Program-made: the position numbers and the translations under genes
Shown here: positions 12,965 through 40,668 of the stretch, one piece after another
How positions within the stretch are numbered: the stretch's first letter is position 1
How the letters are laid out: the number at the start of each line of letters is the position of its first letter
Notes under the pieces: generated by a model
Databases searched by the model: none
What the model was told of the DNA's origin: nothing
The model's input: the letters and a program-made list of their open reading frames with translations, nothing else
Source: Isoetes taiwanensis
Taxonomy: Eukaryota > Streptophyta > Lycopodiopsida > Isoetales > Isoetaceae
Reading direction: 5' to 3'
Assembly: GCA_021234155.1 (NCBI GenBank)
Contig: JAJEKV010000051.1
Span: 1 to 64,000 of the forward strand
DNA length: 64,000 bases

Positions 12965-13196
12965 TATCTGATTATGTACAAAGCTTACACAAACTAAAGT
13001 GGTACAAAAATACTAATGGACTAAATTATTGCCCAAAGCTACGTGAGAGCAAATAACCCTTGAACCATCATCCAATTAAATTGGGATTATGTCAACTCCA
13101 AAATCACGCCAACCTGCTGTTGTCTTCTAGGTGGTTTTTGTTTTTTTTAATCTTTTTTTTTGGACTTCAAAAATAACATAAGGTTGCGATTCACGT

Positions 13197-14870: not shown

Positions 14871-15033
14871 AATAGAGCTAGATATGGGAGCCAAGCAAAC
14901 CAAAGGATATGGTGCAGGTGCAGTCTTAAAGATGTGGCAGAAGTTGTATGGGCCTGGAAGTTGTGGCAACCTGCAGAGATTTAGGCGTGGCCTGTGATGC
15001 CTTGGCTGAAGCACCTATCGGAACTCAAATCCG

Positions 15034-15540: not shown

Positions 15541-16177
15541 TTAAGGGATCAATCCATGGTTTTCCACATATTTAACAAGGTGTGGTTCCATGTCAGCCGT
15601 TCTATCCAGTTCTGGGTATGAATCTAACACTTCACCCACCGTCATCCCCATAGCCAAATTATTCATAATAGACACAAACTTCACCAGAAAATCATCTGTC
15701 GCAAATGTTTTTGGATCGTAAGATGGTGGATTCAGGACCTGCGTTTGATTGTAGAAGCATTTAAGAGCATCATCATCCACTATGATTATATCATCCTTAT
15801 TCTCGATACCAAGTTCGTCCATCATGTTACTCAAGTGTTTGATGAAGATAGGCTTGACTGTTGGATCATTGGGATTAGTGAACTTCATACATTTGTTCTG
15901 ATCCCAAAAGGTCAACCAATGTCTACGCATTTCCCCCAGTGCCTCCAAAGTATCCTTGATGTTCCTTAGTTCCATGGATGACCAAATACCAATTCGAAAT
16001 AACCTGAATGCCTCATCTAGCATCTCCTTCAAGTGCGGCCGCGGATAGATCCACTTGGTGTTTGATTCTACTGGTGTCTGATGAAACTGATCTCTAGCCA
16101 CTTTATTTTTCGGAAAAGTCTTGCAAAGGACTCCATTTAGGTCGAACACCACAATCTTCTTAGAAACGCAATGTAAG
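15541..16177 (-). pseudogene. last exon, FCP1/NIF-type HAD domain
   Basis: The exon starts SLHCVSKKIV, then VVFDLNGVLCKTFP: the HAD motif I with nucleophile Asp kept and D-L-N-G in place of D-x-D-x-T, a form seen in plant NIF-like proteins. RPHLKEMLDEAFRLFRIGIW followed by SSMELRNIKDTLEAL matches the FCP1-homology region in which a Ser/Thr ends motif II. DDIIIVDDDALKCFYN matches motif III/IV acidic residues. The protein ends ...VKYVENHGLIP at a TAA. This exon is itself undamaged (203 codons after the first GTG, more counting the splice). Family members dephosphorylate Ser/Thr of proteins such as the RNA polymerase II tail. Here the substituted second Asp leaves activity uncertain. Confidence 0.65.
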
Positions 16178-16388
16178 CTGAAACATCAAACATGTATCTG
16201 GTCAGCAAGATACGATAACACAAACAATACAAATGCGCCAAGCGTGATTTGAGTTAGTCTTAACCAAATCGTGTTCGGCGTGATTTAGTTTGACAACGAA
16301 AAATAATCAAAGCACGCTTGGCGCGATTTAATTCAAAGGTAATATAAATTAAATCACGCGTGGCGTGATTTCGTGGGCAAGGCCATAC
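16178..16388 (-). other. intron 3 of the three-domain gene, with palindromes
   Basis: A GTATGG donor and a GTTTCAG acceptor enclose 211 bp. It contains CACGCGTGGCGTG at 16355-16367, CACGCTTGGCGCG at 16313-16325, and degraded copies near 16245 and 16275 (GTGTTCGGCGTG). The flanks repeat AAATCA...TGATTT, extending the symmetry beyond 13 bp. Confidence 0.65.
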
Positions 16389-17725
16389 CTTTCATCTTCA
16401 GTTTCGCTGCCGTCGTCGGCGTCATTATCCCCTTCGCCACCCTTAATCTTCGTGCTCTTCTGACTGTTAGAATTGTTATTTTCTATTAGTTCCGTTGCGT
16501 CCTTCACAACTGACATTATTTTAGTATTCATTTGGCAAACCTGTGAATCACTAGAGTCGCCTTGGTTGCCTTCAGTTTCATTTGCCCTGTCAATTAGTTC
16601 ATTGTTAACCTGTGAATCTACTCTATTGTTGCTTGCATCACCCTGAAGGGAGGCAAGGATATTCCCTAAGTTCGCCGCGATCACATTACTTCGAGCAGCC
16701 AGTTTAGCAGCCATTTGTTCATTGCTTTCCTTTCCAGGCTGTGGATTACTAGTTCCCTCACCAGAACCATCGTCCACTTTCGAATTGGACAAGTCTACGA
16801 GACTTTTGATTGCTGATGATTTCAGGTTGTCATAAGGGCCTTTAGAAGATTTGGCAAGCACATGCATGAGGAATGGTTCAAGAAAGTCTTTGGCCTGCTC
16901 ATCACTCACAAAGCAGTGACATCTTCTAACACCCATAAGAGCCTCTCGGGCAATATAACCTCCAACATGAAGCTCCAAGCAGGTTGTATTAATTGGAGCA
17001 AATGCCTCGACGAGGTAAGCAGCCATAGGCGGGGGAAATCCATTTTTCTTTAAGGGGCCCTTCTCCTTAATTTGTAGCTCGTACTTGATTTCCCCACTTA
17101 GGAGGGGGTCACGATCCTCATCCTCTTCTGACTCATCCTGTTCTGACTGATCCTGATCCGTATGATAGAATATAGTTCTTAAGTCTGGATCATCTAGAAG
17201 AAAACATTCCCATGCACTGCTATTGTCACCCTTGGCCTTAGCAATATCATATTCCTCGTCTGACAGCATGGCTATCAAAATAAAGATCACATGTGCCATC
17301 TTCCGTTCTGTTCGCAGCTCATTATCCTTAACATCATATATTAGGCATCCCTCCCTAATAACTTTGAGGCACTCCAGATCATGAGCAGCGGATAGTGCAT
17401 GCAGATGTGACTCACCTGAAGGACAAACGATGACAATAGTGAAGGACCTCTCAGTTATCAATCCTATACATCTGGTAAAGAAGCTGCTGTAGTCCTTCTG
17501 GTTCATGCCCATCTCCTCTCCCACCCCTGTTGTCCAACACAAAGAGTGATATATTTTTAAGGCAAGAAGTTGATTCTGGCAAGACCTTTGTACCCAATGG
17601 AGACTGAATACTGGACAGTGTCTTCTTCTCCAGTAATCTTCTTCACAAGAGCCACTTTTCTTCTCAACTCGGCCAGTACCTTAGGGGGTAGAATCTCCTT
17701 ATGTTTTGTATTTTTAGCCTTCCAA
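16389..17725 (-). pseudogene. exon with DNA-methyltransferase-like domain
   Basis: Starts NWKAKNTKHKEILPPK, then LRRKVALVKKITGEEDTVQY. A 59-bp GT..AG gap (or a frameshift) near 17590-17530 leads to GVGEEMGMNQKDYSSFFTRC. The block ERSFTIVIVCPSGESHLHAL, and later GFPPPMAAYLVEAFAPINTT, CLELHVGGYIAREALMGVRR and the DEQAKDFLEPFL helix, follow the order of alpha/beta strands in N4/N6 DNA methyltransferases (FxGxG-like motif I late, as in circularly permuted types). I do not see a (D/N)PP(Y/W) catalytic motif, so catalysis is doubtful. A Ser/Asn-rich, acidic tail (EGDNDADDGSETEDE) precedes donor GAAAG|GTATGG. Confidence 0.45.
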
Positions 17726-20665
17726 TCCTATATTATAATGTTATAAGGTGTGTCTTGAATTACGCCCTAAATTTGATGGCTAGGATTAGACGAGCAGATC
17801 CGACGGTCCTGAAATAAACAAAGCATAAGGTTCTTAGGTCTTTTTTTGGGTGGCCATCGAAGAAAACGGCACTGGACATGCTATCGTGAGGCTCTCAAAG
17901 GTTTTATTTTGGAAAATTGGCTGTCTGTTTTGTGGAAGGATTTCGGATGCTTCATCACTGGAGCGCAACAGGCTTTATTGGCCGTGGGAGCTCTTCTTCA
18001 AATGGCTTCCGTTACATCAAGAAGATAGCACTGTTTGAGTTAACAGAATGATCTTCGGTTAACCCCGGTACCAGATTTGGACTTCTGAGACCTCCCAGAG
18101 CAGATGGTTTCAAAATTTCTTTGCCCTTCTGAGACTTCCAAAGACAGTTTCAAAATTCCTTTGCTCGCATTGAAGCTTGCACAAAGTATATTATGTTGTG
18201 AATCAACATGGATGAAGCAGACTCTGAGGAAAGGACATGTGCTTGCATCTACAAACAGACATAAAATTTGGAGGTCTTAGTGTTGACGAGACAGGTATTT
18301 TTTGTACTTGCATTTTTGCTTAGGAATTATATGCATTCCGCCCACTCTACATGCATATTTGCTTTGGTGCTTGCTTAGAGAACAGTCGGTTATTAAGTTT
18401 GGTGCAGACGAATGCCTTTCCCATTTTACATCCATTTTTTTTTGTTGCCTTGATGTTTGCATTGCATGTTATTATCCATCATGTTAGGGTCCATAAGCAA
18501 TCACTAGAAGAAACATCTTCATGTACAACTGAAAATATGGTCTCCTTTATGTGCTCTACTTAAAATCTGGAAAGTACAACTCTATATATCTGCCATTTGC
18601 TTAGGAAGCTTGGTCTGGACAGATCAGTTGTGCATCATTGTTCTTCGTGATGAGTATGTATGCACACATGATAATTAATAATTAAACACAAGCTTGAAAT
18701 CTAGAAGATACATTAAACTTAATTTTTGTTTCCTGCCTATCTAGGTCAAAGGAGTCCTGCTGCATGCTACTGAGCAACTGCAAACACTACAAGAAGAAGA
18801 TATGTCTAAGTTACCATTATCTTTCCAAAATGTTGCCGTCCTTGAGATCTCTTATGATTGCATTCGAGATGGAATTCAGGTCAGGTTATCTTCATCTGGA
18901 GCAGTTTCTTATAATATAGGATAGCATTTCAAATATCATTTCATCCGCTTTGGCAGAGTGCATTCCGCAAACATGCAAGATAACTACTCTTAGCTTTCTG
19001 ATCCCTTTTGATCCCACAACATAATTGTTTGCGCGCCTTTTGAAGTGTTTAAGGTTCCCATGGAAGTTTCCTATAGTGCCATCACAGGGTAAGCAAAGTA
19101 ATTACGATATAATGAAAAAGATATGGCTTTTGCTGCAGTCATGCTTCTATGCAGCTCAATTTGTAGCTTGGATAATCTAGAAGATACATTAAACTTAATT
19201 TTTGTTTCCTGCCTATCTAGGTCAAAGGAGTCCTGCTGCATGCTACTGAGCATGTCTAAGTTACCATTATCTTTCCAAAATGTTGATGTCCTTGAGATCT
19301 CTTATGATTGCATTCGAGATGGAATTCAGGTCAGGTTATCTTCATCTAGAGCAGTTTTTTATAATATAGGATAGCATTTCAAATATCATTTTATCCGCTT
19401 TGGCAGAGTGCATTCCGCAAACATGCAAGATAACTACTTTTAGCTTTCTGATCCCTTTTGATCCCACAGCGTAATTGTTTGCGCGGATTTTAAAGTGTTT
19501 AAGGTTCCCATGGAGGTTTTTCCTATAGTGCCATCACAGGGTAAGCAAAGTAATCACGATATAATGAAAAAGATATGGCTTTTGCTGCAGTCATGCTTCT
19601 ATGCAGCTCAATTTGTTGAATTCGTTGAAATTTCTTTCTTGCATTGATAGATCAGCTAAAACATCAGGTAATTTTATATAATATGAATGCCCACATAATA
19701 CAGCATAAGTGAACATTCAAAATGTTGGTTGGTTGTGGGAAAATTTCGTTGCCCTTCAGTTCGATGTTGCAGGCTTTTAGAAATACGAATGTCGGGTTTA
19801 TTACGGGAAGATTTTGTTGCCATTCAACTATTCTGCCCATGTTGCAGACTTTTGGAAATAACAATGTCCCATACTTGAACTAACATGTCCAATGAATCTA
19901 TTTCTGGATACAAAAGGAAATAACAATTGTTTAATGTTTTAATGCTGACCTCTATTCGTTAAACAAAAAATTAATGTTGATGTATGCACTTAATTTTAGC
20001 TGCAAATCATTATCTGCTTCGGCAATTAAAAGCTGGACAACGGGAGATAATTGCAGCTTGAATTTTGTATTGCTTACAGTTTCATCAACTCACAGTTTCA
20101 TTATCTTACGTCCCATGCAGCTGTTAAATATTGATTGGGCCCAAACACCTATCAAATTCAAAGCATTAGAATGCAATATTTAAGACACTAGCACAATGTT
20201 GGCAACATGCCCTTGACAAAGGTCTATCCATATTAGTACGATTGGTACAATGTTGGCAACATGACATTGATCCCTTCGAGAGACATGAAAGATCTTTGTC
20301 GTATTAGAGTGCCCTCAAACACTAGATAGGTAGAAGCACTAAAGATAAGTTCACCCCACACACTCCACAACAATAAAATTGAAAAAGATGTAGACATACA
20401 ATACCATACTTTTGATATATAAGAACATATAGAGATACACCCCACAACAAAAAAATTGAAAAAGATGTAGACATACAATACAATACACTTCTGATAGATA
20501 AGAACATATAGAGATACAACGCAAAATTGGATAAAACGGCCATTAAGATCTTAAAACCTTCAAGAGCATAAGCATAACATAAATGATTTTGTGAAGAAAG
20601 GCTAAACGCCATCATTTACATGTTCTTTTTAACTTATGGCCAGCAGCGCTGGGCACCATTACTAG
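17726..20665 (+). mobile_element. Helitron B with captured, internally duplicated exons
   Basis: The 5' end TCCTATATTATAATG starts at 17726 after host A. The 3' hairpin (one stem mismatch) is at 20639-20655, with CTAG at 20662-20665 and host T at 20666. It is inserted opposite to the three-domain gene. Inside, a segment at about 18700-19100 is repeated at about 19170-19600. Both copies hold a splice-bordered exon (CTATCTAG to CAGGTCAGG). The first copy reads VKGVLLHATEQLQTLQEEDM and then LEISYDCIRDGIQ, which resembles the exon at 45706 of the C2-domain gene in this window. No helicase gene. Confidence 0.85.
18755..18880 (+). pseudogene. captured exon in Helitron B, similar to the C2-gene exon at 45.7 kb
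   Basis: After an acceptor-like TATCTAG, the frame reads VKGVLLHATEQLQTLQEEDM, then SKLPLSFQNVAVLEISYDC, up to a GTCAGG donor. The exon at 45706 has EQDSILSTSFSSKLLVEISYSC in the matching place. The second Helitron-internal copy (about 19218-19330) has lost about 30 bp. Function of the captured piece is unknown. Confidence 0.4.
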
Positions 20666-21332
20666 TTCTTTAGGAAGTCCTTTGGCCAGAATACAAACTT
20701 CTTGATGTCATCATTACTGACCTTGTATTTGTCCAGCAATCCAATTTCAGATAATGCCACATCCCATTGATAGCCTTTGTAACTCAGCTCCTACAACTGA
20801 CTTCATTTTACGTACATCCTTCACATGGCTGCAGCACTCAATGAAGGACATCCTATCCTTAGTGAAAGCACTCTTCTTGTATAAGACTTCCTTCTTTAAG
20901 CACTGGTCTAAAACCCAAATGGTCTCAGCGTCATCTAGCCCCTCAGTCTTTCTCATCTCTGTCACATTCAAGTCAAAGATGCTTACATCAACAGGAGGCA
21001 CCCTACTCATAGTATCTGGCAGCTTCCCTTGTGCATAAGCGTCCCAGAATCCATTCCACTTTTGCCATACTGCCTCCTTACAAAACACAATCTTATACGA
21101 GTCTGTTGGGCCTGACCTGCTAGATGAGCTTTCAGAAGGATCTGCAATGTCATCACCACCTTTTTTCTTTGATTTTCTTGCAGTTTTCTTCTTCTCCTAT
21201 ATAATTGTCTGCGACAGAGTCCGCTCCAGCAGCTTGAAAGCCTCAGACTTTGACCCGCCCTGTCTGGTGGGTAATGGGCAACCATATTCCACCCACTGTT
21301 GACGGGCGTGGCGCAGTTGCTCCACGTATGGA
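20666..21332 (-). pseudogene. exon 3, linker between ParB-like and methyltransferase-like regions
   Basis: The exon starts SPYVEQLRHARQQWVEYGCP across the splice. An in-frame TAG lies at 21199-21197, after which the frame stays open: a lysine-rich patch (EKKKTARKSKKKG), then KEAVWQKWNGFWDAYAQGKL. A one-base shift near 20760 moves the reading to ALSEIGLLDKYKVSNDDIKK. The frame then meets Helitron B at 20666/20665 and continues at 17725 as FLKNWKAKNTK. I do not recognise a domain in this part. Confidence 0.55.
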
Positions 21333-21599
21333 CTGCAATAGTACAGACATTGAATCAGTATAAGAGACAAGAAACACGCCGGTCGCGATTTGAATAGAAA
21401 AGATCAACCTCAAAGCACGCCTGGCGTGAAATGAATTAAATACCAATGCAATTCATGCCAGGCGTGCTTTCGAATCAGTTGAATTCACGCCTGGCGTGAA
21501 TTGGTTTGATTTGAAAGCACGCCTGGCGTGAATTGGTTTCATTTGAAAGCACGCCTGGCGTGAAGATTAAAATGCTAACATCCTAATGCAGTCAGTTAC
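21333..21599 (-). other. intron 2 of the three-domain gene, packed with palindromes
   Basis: A GTAACT donor and an ATTGCAG acceptor enclose 267 bp. It contains CACGCCTGGCGTG at 21416, 21486, 21518 and 21550, an inverted-sense copy CATGCCAGGCGTG at 21454, and a degraded copy near 21375. The 21412-21470 pair can fold into a stem of about 20 bp (AAAGCACGCC... with ...GGCGTGCTTT). Confidence 0.65.
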
Positions 21600-22415
21600 C
21601 TTTTGTATAGAAATGTCTTCCCCATTTCATTCAAAGTTGCACTAATCTCAGCCAAATCTGCAGGTGAAGTATTGGCATCCAAGAGACGACACCTTATATA
21701 CGCATAGTGATTGTAGAACACGCTTTGGCCCGTTTGTTCTGCCTGCCCGATGAGGGCCTTTTGTGCCTCAACAGAATGCTGCCCGTCGATGATGACGAAT
21801 TTAATGTTATCATTTAGCATTAACTCCTCGAAGTTCGTCCACACAGCAGGCTTGTTCGAGATCATATCCCAAGGTAACACATCCGCTGGCATAGGCATTT
21901 GACCTGGATTACTAATCATGCTCTGAACAATCTCCATGGCATGTGCAGGATCATATCTTCTGCTAACATAAATGGAGCTTGGTGAACGGATGGGGGACTT
22001 CAGATGGATCGCAAAAGTTTCCTTAAGACCCAATGGATAATGGTCAGAGTACTTATTCAGCTTGTTCATGGTCTCTAGCTGCGCCACCCTGTCCTGTTCA
22101 TTCTAAAAAACAGATGCCTCCATACCTTCGACAACTGCAGGAAGAACATCCTTCCCTACATTTAGGACCCTCTTAGAAGCTTTCAAGTCAGCTAATTCCC
22201 TAGCTTGCTGCAAATAGTGACTTGGTGTCGGTTTATTGAACATGCCTCTACGCACAGCTGTAACCCCTTGGGAAATAGATACTGGCATAACTGCTACATT
22301 GGTGGGCCAACCATACTTAAAACATGTCTCACCGTTCACATCTGTCCTCATGAACGTATCTTTGTATGCAGTAGCTCTACAGTGAGTAAGTCTGAGCAGA
22401 TCTTTCTTCTGCTTA
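21600..22415 (-). pseudogene. exon with ParB-like (DGQH) domain
   Basis: The open frame reads KQKKDLLRLTHCRATAYKDT, then, after an in-frame TAG at 22105-22103, continues in the same frame. It contains SRRYDPAHAMEIVQSMISNP, PADVLPWDMISNKPAVW and the core KFVIIDGQHSVEAQKALIG, roughly residue 350 of the whole protein. ParB/Srx-fold domains carry a hydrophobic-x-D-G-x-H-R-x-x-A signature. Here it is DGQHSVEA, with Ser in place of the usual Arg, which would matter for CTP/ATP or DNA contacts in true ParB proteins. The exon ends AAAAG with donor GTAACT (phase 2). The TAG could instead be the AG of a cryptic acceptor (TGTTTTTTAG), but no paired donor was found. Confidence 0.6.
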
Positions 22416-24301
22416 CTAGTAATGGTGCCCAGCGTTGCTGGGCAAATGTTGGGAACATTTGTGGATGGAAACCTATTCAGCTCAGACTCATTTTTATACA
22501 TCTAATATAATAGAAACCAAGTCCATCATTGCTAGGCTATAAGAGGTTTTTGTGCATTTGATAACCTTCCCTTTGCTCTATCCTGCATATCCTTTTTTCC
22601 TCATTTTCTTGCACACTTTCTTTTTTCCCTTTTCTGATTTTCCCTGCACATTTACTTTTCTCCTTCTCTCTCTTTTTTTTTACCCTCTTCTCCCTCCTCT
22701 TTTTCTTCCTTTTCTCCTTCTCATTTTTCCCTTTCCCTTTCCCTTTTTTTGACGGCTTTTTTCCTTCCCTTTTCACCTTTCTCCACCCTTCCCATTTTTC
22801 TCATGATCTTTTTTCCCTTTCCTTTTCCCATTCCTTTTGCTTTTCTCTTTTTCCCTTACCTTTTCTCATGCCCCTTTTTTGCATTCCCTTTTCCCCACCC
22901 TTTTTTTTTTATGTTTTCTTCCTCTCCTCACCCTCTTCTTCTTTATCTCATGTCTCTTTTTCCCATTTTCTTCTTTCTTTTTTTCTCGTGCCTTTTTCCT
23001 TTCCTTCCCCCTTCCGCCTCCTTTTTCCTTTTCCCTTTCCTTCTTTTTTCATCATTTCCCCACCCTTTCCATTTTCCCGTGCCCTTTTCCTCTTTCCTTC
23101 CCCCTTTCCTTTTCTCTTTCCCTTTCCCTTTTCCCTTTCCCTTTTTCCCTTTCCCTTTTCCTTTCCTTTTTCCTTTTTCCTTTTTCCCATGTATTTTTCC
23201 ATTCCCTTTTTTCCACTTTTTTACTTGCCTTTTCTTCCGCCTTTCCTTACCCTCTTCCCCTTTTCCGTCCCTATTCCTTTTTTTTTTTTTTCTTTTCCCT
23301 TTCCCCATGCTCTTTTTTCCCTTTATTTTTTACCCTTTCCTCACCCTTTCCCTCTTCCAGTTTTTTCCGTGCCCTTTTTCCTTCCTCTTTTCCATTTTCC
23401 CTCCTTATTCCTCGTGTTCTTTTTTCTTTCCCCTTTCCCTTTTCGCCTCCCATTTCCTTTTTCCTTTTCCTTCTTTTTTTCATCCTTTTCTCCCTCTTTC
23501 CTTTCCACCCTTTTTTTTCCTTCTCTCTTTTCCTTTTCCATTTTCCCACACCTTTTTTCCGTTCCATTTTTTCCACCTTTTTCACATGCCCTTTTTCCTC
23601 ATTTTCCCCACCCTCTTTCCCTTTTCCTTTTCCTCTTTTTCCTATTCCATGTTTTCTACATTTCTTTTTTTTTGCTTTTTCCCTTTTCCCTTTTTCCATC
23701 TCTTTTTCCCTTTCTTTTTTTTTCCTTTCCTCACCCTTTTCCTCTTCTCGTGCCACTTTCTCCTTCCTCTCTCATTTCCCTCTCCCTTTTCCTCATGCCC
23801 TTTTCCTTTTTAGCCTCCTTTTCCTTTTCCTTCCCTTTCTATTTTTAGGGCCCTTTTTTTCTCTCTCCACCATTCTTATCTTCCCCTTTTTCCCTTAGTC
23901 ACCCTTTTTCGTCTTCACATTTTTTCCGTTGCTTTTTTTTTCTTCCTTTTCCTCCTTCCCTTTTTCTTTTCCCTTATTCTGTCCTCCCCTTTTCCCCCCT
24001 TTTCCTTTTCATAGTGTCTTTTTTTCCTTCCTTTTTCTCCCTTTCTTTTTCTTTCCCTTTTTCGTGCTCTTTTCCCTTTCCTTTTTTCTTCTCCGTCTTT
24101 CCCTTTTACCCGTGCCTTTTTATCTCTCACTTTGCCCTTTTTTCTGCCATTTTCCCTTTCCTCTTAAGAGATCAGAGCATGGCCAATCATGGTGGTGCGA
24201 AGTTGTGCGATAAATCTCGGCCTTCAAATGCAATCAGACGATATCAACTATCTAAATTAGGGTTTGATGCAAGACATACGCTAAAACTTTATAATATAAG
24301 A
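22416..24301 (-). mobile_element. Helitron C (non-autonomous, polypurine-tract type)
   Basis: The 5' end TCTTATATTATAAAG begins at 24301, 3' hairpin at 22427-22443, CTAG at 22416-22419, host T at 22415. Length is 1886 bp. About 22560-24165 is a continuous pyrimidine-rich tract on the plus strand, built of irregular TTTTCCC units with scattered CATGCCC. It is related to the two copies in Helitron D and to the purine tract at 36.4-38.0 kb. It interrupts the exon encoding the start of the ParB-like region. Confidence 0.85.
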
Positions 24302-24356
24302 TGTGTAATCTCCAAGAGCAATTTGCAGTTGGTGTCATCCTCTTCCTCATAAGAGA
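24302..24356 (-). pseudogene. 55-bp exon piece between Helitrons D and C
   Basis: Reads ISYEEEDDTNCKLLLEITH in the frame of the flanking exon pieces. At its downstream end ACA CA (host A, 24302) joins T AAG CAG (host T, 22415) across Helitron C. The continuity on both sides shows this is host exon, not Helitron. Confidence 0.65.
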
Positions 24357-27300
24357 CTAGTAATGGTGCCCAGCGTTGCTGGGCATAAGTTGAGAGCCTA
24401 TAAATGCTTTGGGATGCAGTGAGAAAAGCCCTATCCCTTTCCCTTTCCCTTTTGCTCTATCCCGCATTTCATTTTTTCTTATTTTCTCTACTTTTTTTTT
24501 TCTTTTCCTTTTTTTTCTCGTCTTTCTCACATGTTTCCTTGTTTTCCCATCCCTTTCCTTCCCCCTTCCCTGTTCCCGATAACCTTTTTCCCTCCCCTTT
24601 TGCTCCTTTCTCCACCTTTTCCCTCTTCTCTTTTTTCTTTGCCCTTTTCCCTTCCCCTTTCTCTTTTTTTATGCCTTCTCTTTTCCCCACCCCTTTTCCC
24701 TTTTTCTCAACCTTTTACTCTTTCGCCCTTTTCCATGCCTATTTTCCCTTCTCTTTTCCTCCTTTTCCCACTCTTTTCCTCCTTTTTTTGTGTGCCCTTT
24801 TCCTTCCATTTTCTTTTCTCCCTCCCATTTTTTCCATGCCCTTTTTACCTTCCCTTTTCCATCTCCTCACCCTTTCCCTCTTTCCCTTTTCCATGTTCCT
24901 TTTTTCTCTTCCCTTTTCCATTTTCCTCATTTCCTTTTTCCCATGCCTCTCTCTCTCTTTCCCCTTTTCCATTCTTTTTTTTCTTTTCTATTTCCCTTTT
25001 CCCATGCCCTTTTTCCCACCCTTTTCTTCTTTCTATTTTTCCGTGCTTCCTTTTCCTCCTTTTCCCACCCTTTCCCTCTTCCCGTGCAATTTTCCCTTCT
25101 TTCAACCCTTCCTTTTTCTTTTCTCTTTTCCTTTCCTCATGTCCTTTTTCCTTTCCCTCCCCTCCATCACTCCCCGCTTCCCTTTCCCTTTCCCTTTTTT
25201 CCGTTTCCTTTTCTTGATGGACTTTTTTCTTTTCGTTTTCCTCCTTTTCTTAGATCCTTTTCACGTGCACTTTTTCCCTTCTTTTTCCTTTTCCGTTTCC
25301 CTTTTTCTATACCTTTTGCACATTTGTTTTATTCTCTTATTTCCTATACCCATTTTCCTCTTTTCCCCACCCTTTCTCTCTTGCCCTTTTTCTTTTCCTT
25401 TTTCTTTTTCCCTTTCTTCACCATTTTTCTCTTCCCTTTTCTCTCATGCCCTTCCCCCTTCCCTTTTCTCGTTTCCCTCTTTCTTTTTCCTTGTGACCTT
25501 TACCTAGGTTCCCTTTCCCCTTTTCCTTTTCCTTTTCTTTCTTCTCACTTTCCCTTTTTCTATGCCCCTTTTCTTTTCTCCTCTCCTCTCCCCATCCTTT
25601 TCTTGTTCCCCCTTGTCCCTTCCCTTTTCCTCATTTTTCCAACCTTTCCCTATTCCTCTTTTCTTGATGCGTTTTTTCCCTTCCCTTTCCCTCTCTTTTT
25701 TTTCCCTTTTCCTATGCCATTTGTCCCTTCCGTTTTCCTCTTTCCGCAATGCTTTCTTTTTCCCCCTTTTCCCATGCTCCTTCCTTTTCCCATGCTTTTT
25801 TTCTCCTCCCCTTTTCCATGCTTTTTTTCTCCTTCATTTTCTCCTTTTTTCAACCTTTTCCTCTTTCCTTTTTTTTTTTCATGCCCTTTCCATTTACCTT
25901 TTCCACTTTATCTCTTCCTCCTTCCCTCGTGCCGTTTTCCCAGGTTCCCTTTCCCTTTTTTGTTTTCCATGCCTTTTTCTCTTCTCTTATCCCCACCCTT
26001 TCCCTTTTCCTTTTACCCTTTTCCCTTTTCCCCATAAGTTTGAGAGCCTGTAATGCTTTGGGATGCAGTGAGAAAAGCCCTATCCCTTTCGCTTTCCCTT
26101 TTGCTCTATCCCGCATTTCATTTTTTCTTATTTTCTCTACTTTTTTTTTCTTTTCCTTTTTTTTTCTCGTCTTTCTCATATGTTTCCTTGTTTTCCCATC
26201 CCTTTCATTCCCCCTTCCCTATTCCCGATAACCTTTTTCCCTTCCCTTTTGCTCCTTTCTCCACCTTTTCCCTCTCCTCTTTTTTCTTTCATTTTTTGTT
26301 GCTGGGCACCTTTTCCCTCTTCTCTTTTTTCTTTGCCCTTTTCCCTTCCCCTTTCTCTTTTTTTATGCCTTCTCTTTTCCCCACCCTTTTTCCATGTCTT
26401 CCCTTTTTCTCAACCTTTTACTCTTTCGCTCTTTTCCATGCCTATTTTCCCTTCTCTTTTCCTCATTTTCCCATTATTTTCCTCCTTTTTTTGTGTGCCC
26501 TTTTCCCTTCCATTTTTCTTTTCTCCCTCCCGTTTTCCATGCCTTTTTTACCTTCCCTTTTTCCATCTCCTCACCCTTTCCCTCTTTCCCTTTTCCATGT
26601 TCCCTTTTTCGCTTCCCCTTTTCCATTTTCCTCATTTCCTTTTTCCCGTGCCTCTCTCTCTTTCCCCCCTTTTCCATTCTTTTTTCTTTTCTATTTCCCT
26701 TTTCCCATGCCCTTTTTCCCACCCTTTTCTTCTTTCTATTTTTCCCGTGCTTCCTTTTCCTCCTTTTCCCACCCTTTCCCTCTTCCCGTGCAATTTTCCC
26801 TTCTTTCAACCCTTCCTTTTTCTTTTCTCTTTTCCTTTCCTCATGTCCTTTTTCCCTTTCCCTCCCCTCCATCACTCCCTTGCTTCCCTTTCCCTTTCTC
26901 TTTTTTCCCATTTCCTTTTCTTGATGGATTTTTCTCTTTCCGTTTTCCTCCTTTGCCGATCTTTTTCCTGTGCACTTTTTCCCTTCCTTTCCTTTTCCTT
27001 TTCCCTTTTTCCATTTTATTCTCTTATTTCCTATACCCATTTTCCTCTTTTTCCCACGCTTTCTCTCTTGCCCCTTTTCTTTTCCCTTTTTTCTTTTTTC
27101 CCTTTCTTCACCATTTTCCTCTTCCCTTTTCTCTCATGCCCTTCTCCCATTCCCTTTTCTCCTTTCCCTCTTTCTTTTTCGTTGTGACCTTTACCTAGGT
27201 TTCCTTTCCCCCTTTTCCCTTTCTTTTTTCTTTCTTCTCACTTTCCCTTTTTCTATGCCCTTTTCTATTCCCCTCTCCCCATCCTTTTCTTGTTCCCCCT

Positions 27301-27896
27301 TGTCCCTTCCCTTTTCCTCATTTTTCCAACCTTTCAGTCTTCCCCTTTTCTTGATGCATTTTTTCCCTTCCCTTTCCCTCTCTTTTTTTTTCCTTTTTCC
27401 TATGCCATTTGTCCCTTCCTTTTTCCTCTTTCCTCAACACTTCTCTTTTTCCCCCTTTTCCCATGCTTTTTCTCTCCTCCCCTTTTCCATGCTTTTTTTC
27501 TCCTTCATTTTCTCTTTTTTTCAACCTTTTCCTCTTTCCTTTTTTTTTCATGCCCTTTCCATTTACCTTTTCCACTTTATCTCTTCCTCCTTCCCTTTCC
27601 CTTTTTCGTTTTCCATGTCTTTTTCTCTTCTCTTATCCCCACCCTTTTCCCTTTTCCTTTTACCCTTTGCCCTTTTCTCCATGCCTTTTAGCCCTTCACA
27701 TTCTCTCTTTCCACTTCCCTTTTCCTTTTCCCCCTTTTCATTTACCCTTTCCCCTTAAGAGATCGAAGCATGACCAATCACAGTGTTTGTAAGTCGCGCA
27801 ATAAATCTAGGCCTTCGGATGCATCCAGATGATCTCGGCCATTCAAATTAGGGCTCGATGCACTACGCACTTACGGTATAACATTATAATATAAGA
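24357..27896 (-). mobile_element. Helitron D (non-autonomous, polypurine-tract type)
   Basis: The 5' end TCTTATATTATAATG begins at 27896 after host A. The 3' hairpin is at 24368-24384, with CTAG at 24357-24360 and host T at 24356. The interior from about 24420 to 27760 is almost pure pyrimidine on the plus strand (purine on the Helitron sense strand). It is a tandem duplication: the phrase TGCTTTGGGATGCAGTGAGA occurs at about 24402 and again at about 26052, and the two 1.65-1.7-kb copies are closely alike. A half hairpin GTTGCTGGGCACC at 26298-26310 is a relic. There is no coding capacity; long F/P/L/S-rich frames are composition artefacts. Confidence 0.85.
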
Positions 27897-28169
27897 TTAG
27901 GATCCCTTGTTTGGTCATCTTGTCTGCTTCCTTTTTCCTCGAGAAGAGAGTTAAGTCGAGCTTGACATTTATCTTGGCAAGGTCAATGTACCACTCGGCA
28001 CCCTCGTCCATTTCCTCTTCAGGGCACGCAGGGTCAGTGGTTGCTATAAGAATCGGCCCTTCATCATCTAATGTCAGATCATATGGTACTGCATCTGGGT
28101 CGTCTACCCTCAATGGTTTCTTACCAGGAATAGACCTCGAATTATTAGGGGTTTTCTTCCTCTTAGGCA
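27897..28169 (-). pseudogene. exon 2, first part, before Helitron D
   Basis: An open frame of 91 codons starts PKRKKTPNNSRSIPGKKPLR (nuclear-localisation-like) and becomes acidic (CPEEEMDEGAEWYIDL). It runs to host A at 27897, where Helitron D begins. After D the frame resumes at 24356 without a gain or loss of bases: CTA A|TC TCT TAT. No family is recognised for this N-terminal part. Confidence 0.6.
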
Positions 28170-28634
28170 CTGCAAAAGAAGATGAACATTTTTTTATTGT
28201 ATTTTCCAGAACAAGAGATCACGCTTGGCGTGAATTTGAACCTAAATTAGTATCATTCACACTGCATGCGTGAATTTGAAGCTAAATTAGTATGCATCCA
28301 TATTTTAAGCTACGTACCCTTTATGAATCCATATTTCTCACTATTTAACCTCATTGAACACTGCTATCTCTAACTGTCAAACCTCCAGCTCTAAATAGGT
28401 GTGTACCCCTCTATTAAAAACTACTAAGAACTATATTCTATAAAAACAGAGCAAAATTATGTCCTAAAAAACAGACAATCAGAGCATTAGCTGAAGGTAA
28501 TAATTTAAATTCATGCAAAGCATAATAACTCAAATTCATGCAAATCATATTAACTGAAGGCAAGGAAATAACTCAAATACATGCAATGCATAATACTCTC
28601 CACACACTGTGTATTCAGAAGGCAAATTAAATAC
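28170..28634 (-). other. intron 1 of the three-domain gene
   Basis: Bounded by GTATTT at the 5' side and TTTTGCAG at the 3' side. It contains one perfect 13-bp palindrome CACGCTTGGCGTG (28220-28232) and a degraded copy about 28258-28272 (CACACTGCATGCGTG). Otherwise it is AT-rich with short CATGCAAA-type repeats. Confidence 0.6.
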
Positions 28635-28749
28635 CTTGAATAGGGGTTTCAACGTCCTCTGAAACTTGAGAAGAGCCAGGTTTTGAGTTTCCTCTGCCAC
28701 CGCTTCCTCGGCCCCGTCCGCCTCAGCCACCTCTGGTTTTAGTAGACAT
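28635..28749 (-). pseudogene. exon 1 of the three-domain gene, RG-rich N-terminus
   Basis: The ATG is at 28749. The product begins MSTKTRGG, then an in-frame TGA, then GGRGRGSGGRGN, an RGG-type basic stretch common in RNA/DNA-binding proteins. The stop falls where CGA (Arg) would continue the RG repeat, so a single C-to-T change explains it. The exon ends CAAG with donor GTATTT, phase 1. It joins an acceptor TTTTGCAG at 28170, giving a valine codon across the junction. Confidence 0.6.
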
Positions 28750-29582: not shown

Positions 29583-30164
29583 CTACTGAGTAGCTTGGCT
29601 ATCGATACTCCCATTTCCATTCCAGGGCATAGTGAATGGATCAGATAAAACCCCAGCAAAAACCCCAGGCTCTAGCTCCACCTTCCCCGCCTGCTCCATC
29701 TCCACCTCCTGCTCCTCCTCCTGCTCCATTGGTTGAGCCATCTCCATTGCATCGTATACCGCCTGTGGTAGTGGTTCGTGTTGGGGCATCCGGGCATAGA
29801 GGCTAGCCACTAAGAAACGCAGCTCCTCATTTTGAATCTCGAGCTGACGGTTGCGAGATTCACTCTCGATCAATGCATGTACTGCTTGATCGAAGTAATC
29901 AGATAAGAGGGCCAGCCTCCATGCGATTGCAAGGGCCTCAGAGCCCAGATTTAAAATTGCCCTGCACTCTGCTGCCATCATCATTACTTGATCCAAGTAC
30001 TGCAGGGGTTGCAAGACTGGTGCTCCAGCCGGACTGGTGCTCGTCTGCGGTTCAACCGGACTGGAGCTTGGAGCCAAAACTGGAGCTGGGGTGTGTGATT
30101 GCTGCCCCACATGTAATTCCAATGCATCTTCGTCACCAACCGGGTGGTTAATGTAACTTGGCAT
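29583..30164 (-). CDS. last exon of a second minus-strand gene, coiled-coil protein
   Basis: The exon begins at 30164 right after an ATTGATAG acceptor and starts MPSYINHPVGDEDALELHVG. A Pro/Ser/Ala-rich region follows (about residues 25-55), then a long amphipathic helix (about 60-140, with RNRQLEIQNEELRFLVASLY) and a Glu-rich tail (EQEEEQEVEMEQ). It ends at TAG 29585-29583. No known domain recognised. It lies between the three-domain gene and a third minus-strand gene, all in the same direction. The preceding exon is at 32552-32414, whose phase fits. Confidence 0.5.
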   Translation of the reverse strand: MPSYINHPVGDEDALELHVGQQSHTPAPVLAPSSSPVEPQTSTSPAGAPVLQPLQYLDQVMMMAAECRAILNLGSEALAIAWRLALLSDYFDQAVHALIESESRNRQLEIQNEELRFLVASLYARMPQHEPLPQAVYDAMEMAQPMEQEEEQEVEMEQAGKVELEPGVFAGVLSDPFTMPWNGNGSIDSQATQ

Positions 30165-30197
30165 CTATCAATAGGAAGTTACCGGAGTATCAGTATT

Positions 30198-30311
30198 CGC
30201 GCCTGGCGTGTTATATTTATTTATTTATAAACTTAGAAACTAAGAGACACGCCCGGCGTGTTTAAATTAAAAGTTAAAACTAGGGATAAAATTGTTTGCA
30301 CGCTCAGCGTG
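30198..30311. repeat. three 13-bp CACGC-NNN-GCGTG palindromes
   Basis: CGCGCCTGGCGTG at 30198, CACGCCCGGCGTG at 30248 and CACGCTCAGCGTG at 30299, about 50 bp apart, in the intron of the second minus-strand gene. The flanks differ while the palindrome is kept, and the centre varies (CTG, CCG, TCA). Confidence 0.7.
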
Positions 30312-30341
30312 TAAACTGCTATATAGGAAAAACTATACACG

Positions 30342-31690
30342 CCAATGTATGTTTACCTTTGAGAGTTGGTTACTGGGGTTATACGATGATGATCCCCGAC
30401 GTGGTAGAACTTAAAAGCCTATACGTGTCCTCCACTTTGGCTGCCGCAAGGCGGTGGGATAAACTAGCTAGTCTGTACAAGATTAGTCTAGTATGGACCT
30501 TAAACAAAGTCTTAAAAAATCAATGGGACTAGGATGGTGGCATTAGGATGGTGAGGTTAAAAAAGTCATGCCCCTAGAGTTGCCCCTAGGACCTCGACTT
30601 CCTAAGGCGAGATTAAATCCTGCCTACAAAGTGTGCATGTAAGGCAAAAGTTTTGGCCAACGGATGTGTGGTGAGTTGGTATAGGCCTGGTAATGCCAAA
30701 ATAAATATGCATTTGGTCATGGATTCAAACCTTGCCAATGTATGTTTATCTTTGGGAGTTGGTTACTGGGGTTATACGATGATGATCCCCGACGTGGTAG
30801 AACTTAAAAGCCTATACGTGTCCTCCACTTTGGCTGCCGCAAGGCGGTGGGATAAACTAGCTAGTCTGTACAAGATTAGTCTAGTATAGACCTTAAACAA
30901 AGTCTTAAAAAATCAATGGGACTAGGATGGTGCCATTAGGATGGTGAGCCTAAAAAAGTCATGCCCCTAGAGTTGCCCCTAGAACCTCGACTTCCTAAGG
31001 CGGGATTAAATCCTGCCTACAAAGTGTGCATGTAAGGCAAACGTTTTCCCCAACGGATGTGTGGTGAGTTGGTATAGGCCTGGTAATGACAAAATAAATA
31101 TGCATTTGGTCATGGTTCAAACCTTGCCAATGTATGTTTATCTTTGGGAGTTGGTTACTGGGGTTATACGATGATGATCCCTGACGTGGTAGAACTTAAA
31201 AACCTATACGTGTCCTCCACTTTGGCTGCCGCAAGGCGGTGGGATAAACTAGCTAGTCTGTACAAGATTAGTCTAGTATGGACCTTAAACAAAGTCTTAA
31301 AAAATCAATGGGACTAGGATGGTGGCATTAGGATGGTGAGGCTAAAAAAGTCATGCCCCTAGAGTTGCCCCTAGGACCTCGACTTCCTAAGGTGGGATTA
31401 AATCCTGCCTACAAAGTATGTATGTAAGGCAAAAGTTTTGCCCAACGGATGTGTGGTGAGTTGGTATAGGCCTGGTAATGCCAAAATAAATATGCATTTG
31501 GTCATGGGTTCAAACCTTGCCAATGTATGTTTATCTTTGGGAGTTGGTTAGTGGGGTTATACGATGATGATCCCCGACGTGGTAGAACTTAAAAGCCTAT
31601 ACGTGTCCTCCACTTTGGCTGCCGCAAGGCGGTGGGATAAACTAGCTAGTCTGTACAAGATTAGTCTAGTATGGACCTTAAACAAAGTCC
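30342..31690. repeat. 393-bp tandem repeat, about 3.4 copies
   Basis: Copies start at about 30342, 30735, 31127 and 31520 with CCAATGTATGTTTA. Spacing is 392-393 bp and divergence is low. The last copy breaks off at AACAAAGTCCTAGGGGCTTA near 31690. Each copy contains an open frame of about 70-78 codons (VGYWGYTMMIPDVVELKSLY) that is probably incidental. The array sits in the long intron of the second minus-strand gene. Confidence 0.85.
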
Positions 31691-32150
31691 TAGGGGCTTA
31701 GCGTGTAAATAATTGTCTGGCCTTTATCTATTTACTTATCTATCTATACAATTTTTTTTTCTCTCTCTCCTGAATGCACGCCGAGCGTGTATTCATATTC
31801 AAGGCTAAGGTTAGCATGTATTCGGAACACGCTTAGCGTGTATTGGAACACGCTTAGCGTGTAGTGGTTCGTGTTGGGGCATCCGGGCATAGAGGCTAGC
31901 CACTAAGAAAAGCAAGGCGGTGGGATAAACTAGCTAGTCTGAACAAGATTAGTCTAGTATGGACCTTAAACAAAGTCCTAGGGGCTTAGCGTGTAAATAA
32001 TTGTCTGGCCTTTATCTATTTACTTATCTATCTATACAGTTTTTTTTTCTCTCTCTCCTGAATGCACGCCGAGCGTGTATTCATATTCAAGGCTAAGGTT
32101 AGCATGTATTCGGAACACGCTTAGCGTGTATTGGAACACGCTTAGCGTGT
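31627..32150. repeat. 285-bp direct duplication with palindromes and filler DNA
   Basis: The segment 31627-31862 (GCAAGGCGGTGGGATAAACT... to ...CACGCTTAGCGTG) is repeated at about 31913-32150. The joining piece at 31862-31910 (GTAGTGGTTCGTGTTGGGGC...) is a copy of about 49 bp from the exon at 29769-29817. Palindromes are at 31777, 31828, 31849, 32065, 32116 and 32137. Confidence 0.75.
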
Positions 32151-32413
32151 TTCAAATATTATCTTTGAGATTTTTCTAATGCTTTCTACTATACTTATTC
32201 ATAATAGAAACTTGCACGCAATAGCATGATTAATTCAGGAAGAGAAACTCAAGAATTTAGTCGAAACAAAAAGAAGCAGATGAAGTTTATAAAAAAACTA
32301 TTCTGGTTTTCATAAACATCATCTGCTTCCTCTGCCTCGAGCAAATGCATAAGCTTGTCTTCTTGGATTAAACCTGCCATTAAGATGCAGCTTAAAACTA
32401 AATGAAAACTAAC

Positions 32414-32552
32414 CTTGAGTTCTGAGGCTGGAAGGATTCGAAGAACGGAGGACTTTGCTTTTGGTTTTAATTCTGAGGCTTTTGGATTCGCAGACCTTAG
32501 TCCTCTGCTTTTGGTTTTAATTGAGCCTCCGATGTCCTCTGCTTCTGATGCT
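32414..32552 (-). CDS. upstream exon of the second minus-strand gene
   Basis: A TTCTCAG acceptor and a CTCAAG|GTTAGT donor enclose an open frame ASEAEDIGGSIKTKSRGLRS..., basic and serine-rich, ending SELK. It joins in phase with MPSYINHP at 30164. A first coding exon with the right phase was not found: an ATG at about 32660 leads to a GTGAGC donor one base out of phase. The N-terminus is therefore unresolved or damaged. The intron between the exons (32413-30165) holds the 393-bp tandem repeats. Confidence 0.35.
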
Positions 32553-32718
32553 CTGAGAACAAAAGTGAGAGTCTTTTAGTAAGTTAGGAATTGCCGAAAC
32601 CAAACATCTAACATTGCTGAAAAGAAATCTGCTCACCAAGATTTTAGGAGGGCGCATGCAAACACAGCTGAAGCGCAACCAGCAAATCGTATGAAGAAAG
32701 GAAGAAATTGTAGGAACT

Positions 32719-32744
32719 TTGAGAGCGTGAAATGGATTTATATA
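32719..32744 (-). promoter_or_regulatory. TATA-type promoter of the second minus-strand gene
   Basis: On the minus strand CCTATATAAATCC (32732-32744) is followed by CACGCTCTCAAAG. A near-identical module lies at 33728-33740 in front of the third gene. Both are preceded by a half palindrome (CATGCCTGGCGTA or CACGCCAGGCGTA) about 55 bp upstream. Confidence 0.5.
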
Positions 32745-33265
32745 GGCATAATTAGAAATAAATTAGCGTGAATAATTGATTGCTTGAATTAACATGCCTG
32801 GCGTACGGTTTTCTCGCCAGACATGACATGTATATGGTATATGTGGAGAATATTGCATTTTATGCAATAAATTCTCACGGCATTTTATTCCATTTATTGC
32901 ATTCGAAAAAAAAGAATTTCGAAATTTTATATAGGCTAAATTAAAAATGATTTTAAAGGCAAAATTATCAAGGCTAAAAAAATGACTTGTTGAGTTGGGG
33001 AATTGTTTTAGGTCGTATAGGAAAATTTCTTATACTGCTGTGATGAATCAAAGATTTCTCATGTGGTTGATTTATAGTGTTCCCGAGACTTTGTTGAGAC
33101 AAATGCAGAGACAAAATTTTAGAGAAAACACGTTGGAGACAAAATGCTTGGAGAAAATAGTTTGATTTCATTCAAAATACAAAAACCCTGTTTGAAGAAA
33201 AAGTTTGTGAAGAAAACTATTTGATTTCATTCAAAATTGATATGTACAGATGCCAAGAATGGCTT

Positions 33266-33645
33266 CTAAGTAGATGCCCGAAGGCTTTTCAAAATATCAA
33301 AGAAAAAAATGCCCGTAGGCGTGTCCGAAAACAAAAAAGAAGAAGAGGGCCACCCGGGATCTACATCACTGTTCTTCCATGTCTGCAAGAAAGAAGAAAG
33401 AGAGGTTAGAAAAGAAAAGAGAAAGAAAGGTGCATTAAAAAAAGAAAAGAGACAGCCATGCAAACCTGGTTCATCCCGCAACCATTGTAAAAATTGGTCG
33501 AATCCTCCTCCTCCTCCTCCTCCTCCTCCTCCTCCTCCTCCTCCTCCTCCTCGGCTTCAGAGAATTCATTCTCTGTTTCAGGGTCGAGCCAACCCTGAAG
33601 CTTCTTCAACCCGACGTCTCTTTGAGGAGACCTCTGGTTCTTCAT
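33266..33645 (-). CDS. third minus-strand gene, two exons, acidic protein
   Basis: Exon 1 (33645-33466) reads MKNQRSPQRDVGLKKLQGWL, DPETENEFSEA, a run of about 17 Glu encoded by (GAG)n, then DSTNFYNGCGMNQ. A GTTTGC donor and a TCTTGCAG acceptor (33465-33383, 83 bp) lead to exon 2 (33382-33266), TWKNSDVDPGWPSSSFLFSD, ending ...LKSLRAST. An upstream ATG at 33676 opens a different frame (MKRSASASNLHEEPEVSSKR) that stops near 33580. One of the two starts may be the original with a one-base shift. Family unknown. The TATA box lies about 60-95 bp upstream of the two ATGs. Confidence 0.45.
33505..33552. repeat. (CTC)n microsatellite in coding sequence
   Basis: About 16 uninterrupted CTC units on the plus strand, coding for polyglutamate in exon 1 of the third minus-strand gene. 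Length is likely variable. Confidence 0.8.
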
Positions 33646-33712
33646 GAAGGTTTGACGCTGAGGCCGAACGCTTCATGGCGGGCAGAGAAAAAAAAATTGG
33701 AAGGAATGGAGC

Positions 33713-33740
33713 TTGAGAGCGTGAACCGGATTTATATAGG
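33713..33740 (-). promoter_or_regulatory. TATA-type promoter of the third minus-strand gene
   Basis: CCTATATAAATCC on the minus strand at 33728-33740, followed by GGTTCACGCTCTCAAGC. The whole 33713-33815 module is a diverged copy of 32719-32825, which shows that the two genes share a duplicated promoter. Confidence 0.5.
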
Positions 33741-34141
33741 GTTAATTAAAAATTAGCGTGAATAATTGATTGCCTCAAATAACACGCCAGGCGTACGAAA
33801 TTCCCGCCAGCTATATCATCTAGGGTATATTATTATGGATAATAAATTCACGTCTACCTTATCAGTTATATGTCTTTTCGTAATCTGAAGGCTAAATTTT
33901 CGATAATTAAAATTTGGATATATTTATATAAATGTCATTTCCTTGTTGTTGCCACGAAAATTCTTGTTTTAAATGATTTCGTTTACACCCATTGTTATTA
34001 TTATATTAAACCTATTTCCAAGGAATTTCTTGCTTTTAAAAAAATTTGATTTACCTCTTCCATAAATGGACGTACTTTTCTTATCTCATGGTGTAATAAT
34101 TTTTTCCTACTCATTGACTAAAAAGGGTGCAATTTGCCTAG

Positions 34142-35112
34142 GTCAATGGTGCCTCTCCAACTCAAGATGGTGTGCAACATATTGAAAAGAGCAATATCAA
34201 TGAAAAACCAACTCCTAGCAAGAATGTTGAAGAAAAACAATTAAGGGTGCAATGGAGGAACAAGAAGGTGAGAATCATGCACAAGTGCAACAAGGAAATA
34301 GTAGGCCAAGGAATCATTGTGCTAGCAGATCCTGATGAAAGGCTAGGGGAAGACAATATTGGTATTGCAATTTCGATGTTGGAAGACAACTGGAAAGGTA
34401 AAGGTTTGGGTGACAAGGAATGTTTTGGTTGTGTCAAGCAATTGGAGGTTCCTTGCATCATGGCATGGCCTATAAATAGTGTTCAATTTGTGGAGGATTA
34501 TATTTTTCCAGAGCCTGAGGTTGTTGGGGACAATGATTGTCTTGATATTGATCCATTGGCAGTTGGAACTCTAAACCTAGGCAAAAGGGGAGAAGTATCA
34601 GTTGCCAGACATTATCCTAGCAAAAGAGCCAAGTTGATTAGTGACACCAAACGTGAGACAATGGTGAAGGTTAGGGGCTCAGATTGTTGTTGGAGTGGTT
34701 GTATGCAATTCTTTACAATAGAACAATTGGTGGAAGCAAGAGCCACTTTTCAAAAGTACACTGTTGATGAGAGGAGGACCTACATGTACACAATCTTCGA
34801 GCATGCACTTCTGGATGAAAGAAATCCAAACAGAAAAAGATACCCTTTGCTAGGCAAATGGATATGTCCAAAAGCATGGCAGAATATCCATGCAATTCCA
34901 ACTTCTTCATGGCATAATTGGCAAAAAAAACAGGCAGAGGGGAACAGGATTGCTTTACATGGAAATAATGGTTTGTTGAGACCAACAGCTAGGATCTTGG
35001 CTGCCAGGGAGATATTTGAAAAATATATTGATTTCAATGCAGAGTCTATGCCACACAAAAGCAGAAGGGATGAAAAGGGAAGAGCAGTTGTTGGTTTTCC
35101 AATAATCAATGT
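34142..35112 (+). pseudogene. DUF7869-type protein, N-terminal exon
   Basis: An open frame from a TGCCTAG acceptor (about 34141) runs past 35100. It contains RVQWRNKKVRIMHKCNKEIV, a cysteine-containing middle (VRGSDCCWSGCMQFFTIEQL) and YTVDERRTYMYTIFEHALLD. This matches the usual N-terminal arrangement of plant, algal and animal proteins that carry the DUF7869 domain. The frame is cut near 35112 by inserted DNA and resumes near 38243. The role is unproven; the C-terminal D-N and G-H-T-H motifs suggest an RNase H-fold, transposase-like enzyme. Confidence 0.45.
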
Positions 35113-38100: not shown

Positions 38101-38157
38101 AATATATCATTTATAGATTCTCAGCTTATGCCCAGCAACGCTGGGCACCGTTCCTAG
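35113..38157 (+). mobile_element. composite insertion ending in a Helitron 3' terminus (element E)
   Basis: The right end has hairpin GCCCAGCAACGCTGGGC at 38130-38146 and CTAG at 38154-38157. From about 36410 to 38030 the plus strand is almost pure purine, the sense-strand equivalent of the tracts in Helitrons C and D. The part 35113-36400 is of mixed composition with exon-like stretches, perhaps captured. The canonical 5' end was not found, so the left boundary is taken from where the DUF7869-type frame breaks, and is approximate. Confidence 0.55.
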
Positions 38158-38242
38158 TTGTATGAGAATGTTTTATCTGGCCTATTGTGGAGCCCATTCC
38201 AATAAGGTCATGTACCCGATTTTTGCTATCAATAGAAAATTA
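38158..38242 (+). mobile_element. retroposon 3' tail fragment
   Basis: TATCTGGCCTATTGTGGAGC and a following AT-rich, A-rich tail match, in the opposite orientation, the poly(A)-linked segment at 4160-4230. About 85 bp sit between the Helitron end and the resumed DUF7869-type frame. Confidence 0.4.
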
Positions 38243-40204: not shown

Positions 40205-40668
40205 ATAACTATGTAAATTTTTTTTATCACGTTTTTATGATATGGTGCTATATATATTGTGAAATATTGACTATTTTGTAAATAATATGAGATTACATTT
40301 TCATACTTTTGAGGTGGTTTGTGTGAATTTGAATATGCTATAAAAAACATACAATATGAAATTTGTCCTAAAATTAAGACATAATCCCAATTTAATTGAA
40401 TGATGGTTCTTGCTATGTGAGAGCAAATAACCCTTGTCATTTTAAATGCTGGGTCAACTCCAATATTATATTTTTTTGCATTTAAAAGGACATTTAAAAT
40501 GCACAAGCTTGAAATCATGTCATATCAGCATAAAATCACCTAGGCCACAAGGTTACATAGGAAATTGTTTCTCCTTATGCCATTACGCTTGGTAAGGGCT
40601 TGAAGAGTTTGTCGTGGTCTGTAATGATTCGCTTTTATCATTGCGACAATTACACACGCCCAACTTAT

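Follow-up and report, generated by a model that had tools for sequence, protein, structure and literature searches.

A large DNA transposon family of Isoetes taiwanensis carries an accessory gene with a NIF domain and putative ParB-like and methyltransferase-like parts

The DNA analyzed here, which we call the window, is a stretch of 64,000 nucleotides from Isoetes taiwanensis (contig JAJEKV010000051.1 of assembly GCA_021234155.1). All coordinates refer to it, while copies elsewhere are named by their contig (C1034, C1055, C170 and so on); the genome searched comprises 1,658,258,908 bases in 1,110 contigs. The window contains a minus-strand gene broken up by Helitrons, and we find that it is no host gene but belongs, as an accessory gene, to a large family of terminal inverted repeat (TIR) DNA transposons. 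The transposon spans 13063-40408, and aligned copies terminate at both coordinates. An earlier note on this DNA had placed the feature at 15541..28749, but it extends past these limits, the element being 13063-40408. The left TIR of 31 bp (13063..13093, plus strand, AACCATCATCCAATTAAATTGGGATTATGTC), at which copies start, is an inverted match to the right TIR (40378..40408, minus strand, AACCATCATTCAATTAAATTGGGATTATGTC), at which C1034 and C1076 terminate. Directly outside the TIRs stands the target site duplication (TSD) CTTG as a direct repeat (left 13059..13062, right 40409-40412), and a 4-bp TSD was present in all three copies for which both ends are known (CTTG in the window, TAAT in C1034 and GATT in C170). 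The element therefore shows the TIRs and the fixed-length TSD that define a TIR DNA transposon. A 24-bp tandem repeat, GCTAYGTGAGAGCAAATAACCCTT, surrounds the insertion (13000-13062 and 40409-40440), and because the element inserted within this repeat the TSD looks longer than 4 bp. A 4-bp TSD fits the definition of the Sola superfamily, but is not specific to it.

The genome-wide search for the TIR with up to two mismatches gave 1,593 + 1,620 matches (3,213 in total, a count that may include non-autonomous derivatives) against 0 for the reversed control. Since at least 11 facing TIR pairs among the matches listed are spaced 12.1-12.5 kb apart, the uninterrupted element should be ~12.3 kb long. 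The DNA of the gene region itself matches at least 39 other genomic places with 80-93% identity, some of them partially (40 of 801 candidates were scored). These numbers speak to the explanation that a three-domain host gene, domesticated or not, was struck by three Helitrons. The exons do code in order, but the many other matches, bounded by TIRs and TSDs, render this explanation extremely improbable, and a host or domesticated gene at the window locus is ruled out by copy number, TIRs and TSDs. The earlier note had left the choice between the gene of a large mobile element and a domesticated derivative. The first is borne out by the TIRs, the TSDs, an opposite-strand DUF7869 transposase-like gene and the thousands of TIR matches, while the second fails at this locus in view of the other genomic matches and of lesions in all ten copies aligned.

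Three Helitrons sit in the gene: Helitron B (17726..20665, plus strand), Helitron C (22416..24301, minus strand) and Helitron D (24357..27896, minus strand). All have TC...CTAG termini between a host A and a host T and share an identical 3′ end, so that insertion between A and T, the 5′ TC, the 3′ CTRR with a hairpin (recognized by eye) and the empty sites in other copies mark them as Helitrons. For the empty sites, six further genomic copies were taken as 30-kb stretches and aligned to the window. At the B site, five of the six are uninterrupted across the junction of 17726 and 20666, and the sixth, C778, differs there by ~16 bp. At the C and D sites, one match ends at 22415 and the next begins at 27894 in all six, with just 52 bp in between, which correspond to the host piece 24302-24356. 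The three excision intervals proposed earlier are thus exact to the base. Helitrons C and D also lie in a stretch strongly skewed towards pyrimidines (GC skew -0.62 to -0.68), an odd cargo.

Read along the minus strand, the gene may begin with an upstream open reading frame of 193 amino acids (29583..30164), open in the window, C1034 and C1056, which is either a first exon or a separate protein. Exon 2 (21600..28218, with an approximate 5′ limit) encodes the DndB/ParB-like part with the motif DGQHSVEA and is split by Helitrons C and D. It is followed by an intron (21333..21599) that holds five palindromes, four of them exact CACGCCNGGCGTG and the fifth with a mismatch, and by exon 3/4 (16389..21332), which is split by Helitron B and appears methyltransferase-like. 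A second intron with GT...AG borders (16178..16388), containing one palindrome with one mismatch, leads to the last exon (15541..16177). As read, the accessory protein has a length of ~1,230 amino acids, the 5′ exon left out. The splice phases claimed earlier agree at these two introns, both of phase 2, but a third main intron in the 5′ part could not be placed. Nor do the segments simply rejoin in one frame: besides the Helitrons, the window copy has two in-frame TAG stops (22103-22105 and 21197-21199) and two frame changes (near 20765 and within 17500-17600). With three Helitrons, stops and frame changes, this copy of the element is dead. Such lesions, at least one per copy, likewise occur in all ten other copies that were aligned, several of which are incomplete, and the overall reading is common to them.

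The best-defined part of the protein is encoded by the last exon. Here the match to NIF (PF03031) has an E of 1.2e-14 and 54.8 bits against a cut-off of 21.8, and we regard the C-terminal DLNG-type FCP1/NIF domain, correctly recognized in the earlier note, as solid. Sequence comparison of this exon with the PDB gave UBLCP1 (E 0.0083), and NCBIfam, searched with five pieces of the protein, gave matches below cut-offs only, of HAD type for the NIF exon. NIF/FCP1-like HAD phosphatases have the catalytic motif DxDx(T/V). Both subfamilies of the element read DLNGVLC, in which the first Asp is kept and the second is an Asn. In viral contigs, none of 9 pattern matches to the NIF exon was confirmed, and seven pieces had no match in PHROGs.

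The second subfamily is represented by a complete element with the same TIRs at C170:85082-97397. Its nucleotide similarity to the window is mainly limited to the 3′ part of the transposase and the ends. On the minus strand, the C170 element has the accessory gene in the same order as the window: a 332-amino-acid open frame shows 50% identity to the C1055 protein over 328 amino acids, the HVGGYIGREAL stretch is present as well, and a further segment, with DLNGVLC, matches the NIF exon. The order of the parts, kept in so diverged a subfamily, argues against a chance fusion. Over 318 codons of C170 and C1034, the nonsynonymous divergence (dN) is 0.38, while synonymous differences (pS 0.82) are saturated. 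This conservation at the protein level across two distant subfamilies shows that the accessory protein was under selection for part of the evolution of the element and served it over a portion of that time.

Opposite the accessory gene lies, on the plus strand at 34142..40204, a transposase-like gene with DUF7869 (PF25273, E 5.6e-15 and 1.1e-8), which is broken in the window and holds an insert at 35094-38272. The same opposite arrangement is found in C170. Scoring of 7,540 candidates gave 13 DUF7869 relatives; the nearest (P0001), on a 2.2-kb contig of JGI source, shares 75% identity across 48% of the query part. The alignment of these relatives largely keeps the motifs IIHDKMDQxKT, LQLDNCxGENKNR and GHTHEDxDA, which look like a DDE-type triad. 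In the literature searched, DUF7869 is not named.

Both subfamilies contain repeated palindromes. The 13-bp palindrome CACGCCNGGCGTG occurs 12 times in the window with at most one mismatch, always within 16355-33795, against 0.02 expected. Five of these sites (30198, 30248, 31777, 32065 and 33783; one exact, four with a mismatch) lie in the intergenic region of the divergent genes (30198..33795). In the six 30-kb copy regions, we counted 72 sites inside the elements (3 to 17 per copy) and 0 outside, with element bounds that we set from the copy alignment. The C170 element has none of the CACGCCNGGCGTG form and instead six sites of CGCGCCNGGCGCG, four of them exact and the other two with a single mismatch (200 block shuffles gave 0). 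They are located in the matching intron, in the intergenic region and, at position 384, close to the left end. The arms change symmetrically between the subfamilies, from CACGCC/GGCGTG to CGCGCC/GGCGCG. Two C170 sites in one intron (L037 3847 and 3925) are even perfect palindromes over 33 bp; the outer arms of the one differ from those of the other, and in each site they are fully paired. Across the genome, the CACGCC form has 2,137 exact sites and the CGCGCC form 1,671, against 1 and 5 for the reversed-pattern controls, and the mixed form CACGCCNGGCGCG has 890 sites (420 + 470; controls 7 + 11). By our arithmetic, mixed palindromes are rarer than independent arms would give, which is no proof of selection because the subfamily structure alone could explain the deficit. 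Of 50 CACGCC sites, the first ones listed, 36 have a listed perfect TIR no more than 13 kb away, as do 44 of the first 50 CGCGCC sites; the remaining 14 and 6 have none at this distance, in a comparison that covered perfect TIRs. One may ask if the palindromes are transposase binding sites, or selfish GC-rich palindromic repeats or hairpins, unlinked to the accessory protein. The site near the left end of C170 would suit the transposase, and the two 33-bp palindromes with their different outer arms also fit a hairpin-driven spread. Transposase sites, however, usually adjoin the TIRs, while in both subfamilies the palindromes are found mainly in the accessory-gene introns and the shared intergenic region, not beside the TIRs. 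We consider this explanation on balance unlikely, though it keeps a substantial share of the probability.

The window copy has further inserts. One of 2.2 kb near the left end (13212-15374), without Helitron ends, is missing from C1034 and C1055, and at its place C778 carries ~0.7 kb of different sequence. The insert at 35094-38272, also without Helitron ends, has a 14-bp flanking direct repeat (AAGAGCAGTTGTTG) and an A-rich end, by which it resembles a non-long-terminal-repeat retrotransposon or an insertion like a short interspersed nuclear element. The region from 36 to 38 kb contains a polypurine stretch (GC skew +0.65). At 30341-31818 there is a tandem repeat with a spacing of ~393 bp and four copies, the fourth being 69% alike, and the unit is also found within C778, close to its left end.

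What could such a gene do for its transposon? We tentatively propose, at slightly less than even chances, that it encodes a DNA-binding or anti-silencing factor of the element with the palindromes as its likely sites. The DndB/ParB-like and methyltransferase-derived parts would together form a DNA-recognizing factor, in which the catalysis of the methyltransferase part has probably been lost or changed. This accessory protein would bind the dyad palindromes that recur in the introns and between the two genes, and may thereby keep the element open to expression or movement. It may do so either by counteracting host silencing in the manner of VANC or by marking the DNA of the element, a function suggested for the ParB-methyltransferase genes of algae. 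By analogy with VANC, we favor anti-silencing as the likely purpose. One may guess that the NIF domain might recruit or dephosphorylate the host transcription machinery. A bolder form would be a parS-like system in a land-plant transposon: a protein of ParB/DndB type, fused to a methyltransferase without catalytic activity and to a HAD domain, would recognize about a dozen palindromes, protein and palindrome would co-evolve between subfamilies, and the complex would shield or license the element. This bolder form we hold to be unlikely.

A number of results weigh against the proposed DNA-binding or anti-silencing factor, and several of them concern the domains on which it is built. In Pfam, the ParB-like part matches DndB with an E of 0.0033 (window) and of 0.013 (C1018 frame), and neither match passes the curated cut-off. 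The aligned stretch takes in the IIDGQH motif. The ParB-like domain of the earlier note is supported only by these matches under the Pfam threshold; we call a DndB/ParB-like domain probable. By sequence, this exon gave no credible match in the PDB (best E 0.27), and NCBIfam returned no worthwhile ParB or methyltransferase match for the five pieces. The ParB-like exon of C170 has decayed and shows only 26% identity; IIDGQ can still be recognized in it. AlphaFold models of two parts were uninformative, with predicted local distance difference test scores of 30.9 and 36.5 (the latter for the ParB-like part) from three sequences each, and no relatives of the accessory protein appeared in the protein collection at the set limits among 7,994 and 3,460 candidates scored.

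The methyltransferase-like part adds to these objections. In an hhalign comparison against YhdJ and ten DNA methylases of phages, it scored 20.4 (P 0.051, probability 1%), compared with a maximum of 18.2 in 30 column shuffles, 12.5 for the reversed query and 15.8 for an unrelated transposase alignment. The alignment is colinear and places motif I opposite LELHVGG and DPPY opposite LDSRG. N6/N4 DNA methyltransferases have the catalytic motif (D/N/S)PP(Y/W/F), but at the DPPY position both subfamilies read LDSRG or LDNRG. The motif was hence correctly reported as missing in the earlier note, whereas the methyltransferase fold it saw is a relation that the score makes suggestive; a methyltransferase origin of the middle part is not proven. 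This bears directly on another explanation, in which the protein is an active self-modifying enzyme whose ParB-like part finds the element and whose methyltransferase-like domain methylates its adenine or cytosine. Self-modification has been proposed for the similarly laid-out Sola1-1 protein of Ectocarpus (PMC12477816), and HVGGYIAREAL (HVGGYIGREAL in C170), which resembles motif I, is kept in both subfamilies. With LDSRG or LDNRG in place of DPPY and an N6/N4 methyltransferase profile match that is not significant, we think such an enzyme distinctly improbable.

The proposed factor must also be reconciled with the decay of its gene. The stop at 22103-22105 is shared by four of the eight copies readable in this frame (C1034, C778, C907 and C1035; two of the ten aligned copies were not read there), while C1055, C1007, C1018 and C954 have a Glu at this position, and in C1018 the entire ParB-like exon is open over 389 amino acids. 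Because the stop is common to four of eight, copies with a broken accessory gene could evidently multiply, at least with help from others. This and the lesions in each of the ten copies would suit a captured passenger, as in Pack-type elements, that has no role for the element. The broken genes of transposons, however, commonly spread with the help of intact copies, and a passenger is difficult to square with a gene kept in the same order and strand in two subfamilies under strong constraint at the protein level. We judge it quite improbable. A last objection to the proposed factor is that no evidence here ties the palindromes to the accessory protein rather than to the transposase.

The layout as such is already known. 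Sola1-1_Ec32 of Ectocarpus, a giant DNA transposon, has a gene for a ParB-like and N4/N6-methyltransferase protein opposite its transposase (PMC12477816). The earlier note knew of no named plant family with this order; a comparable gene is, however, already in print. Both elements place on the strand opposite the transposase an accessory gene with ParB-like and methyltransferase-like domains, which are putative here, and the proteins are of similar length (1,104 amino acids in Sola1-1_Ec32, ~1,230 here without the 5′ exon), while the element is ~12.3 kb here and 21.5 kb there. What differs here is the plant host lineage, the C-terminal NIF/FCP1 domain, the missing DPPY and the palindromes. The transposase here is of the DUF7869 type, and the likeness is drawn from the accessory-gene layout. 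The same paper states, citing Iyer et al. 2011 and Petroll et al. 2025, that green and red algal transposons carry the same kind of accessory protein, a ParB-methyltransferase; the NIF domain present here is unmentioned in that passage (PMC12477816). Closest to the anti-silencing purpose are the VANC proteins of VANDAL elements, whose noncoding targets are tandem repeats that vary between related elements (PMC5735166, PMC10398659). An accessory protein encoded by the element and repeated noncoding candidate targets that differ between related elements are common to both systems by analogy, and palindromes are not mentioned in the VANC abstracts. Fungal DNA transposons carry TET/JBP genes, which are thought to aid the escape from silencing (PMC12730594). 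These too are DNA-modification genes on DNA transposons, but of another enzyme family, and the abstract makes no mention of DUF7869. DndB, finally, is placed in the ParB superfamily, in one passage as "formerly classified" (PMC10853773). The likeness here consists of IIDGQH within the aligned stretch, while the match is below the curated cut-off and the element is eukaryotic; Pfam scans of the element turned up no other Dnd genes.

In summary, a ParB/methyltransferase-type accessory gene of transposons, reported from brown, green and red algae (PMC12477816), now has a putative counterpart in a vascular plant. The vascular-plant version adds a C-terminal domain and comes with thousands of TIR matches. 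With their different palindromes and diverged proteins, the two subfamilies provide a ready system for studying how accessory proteins of this kind locate the element that encodes them and what they do to it.

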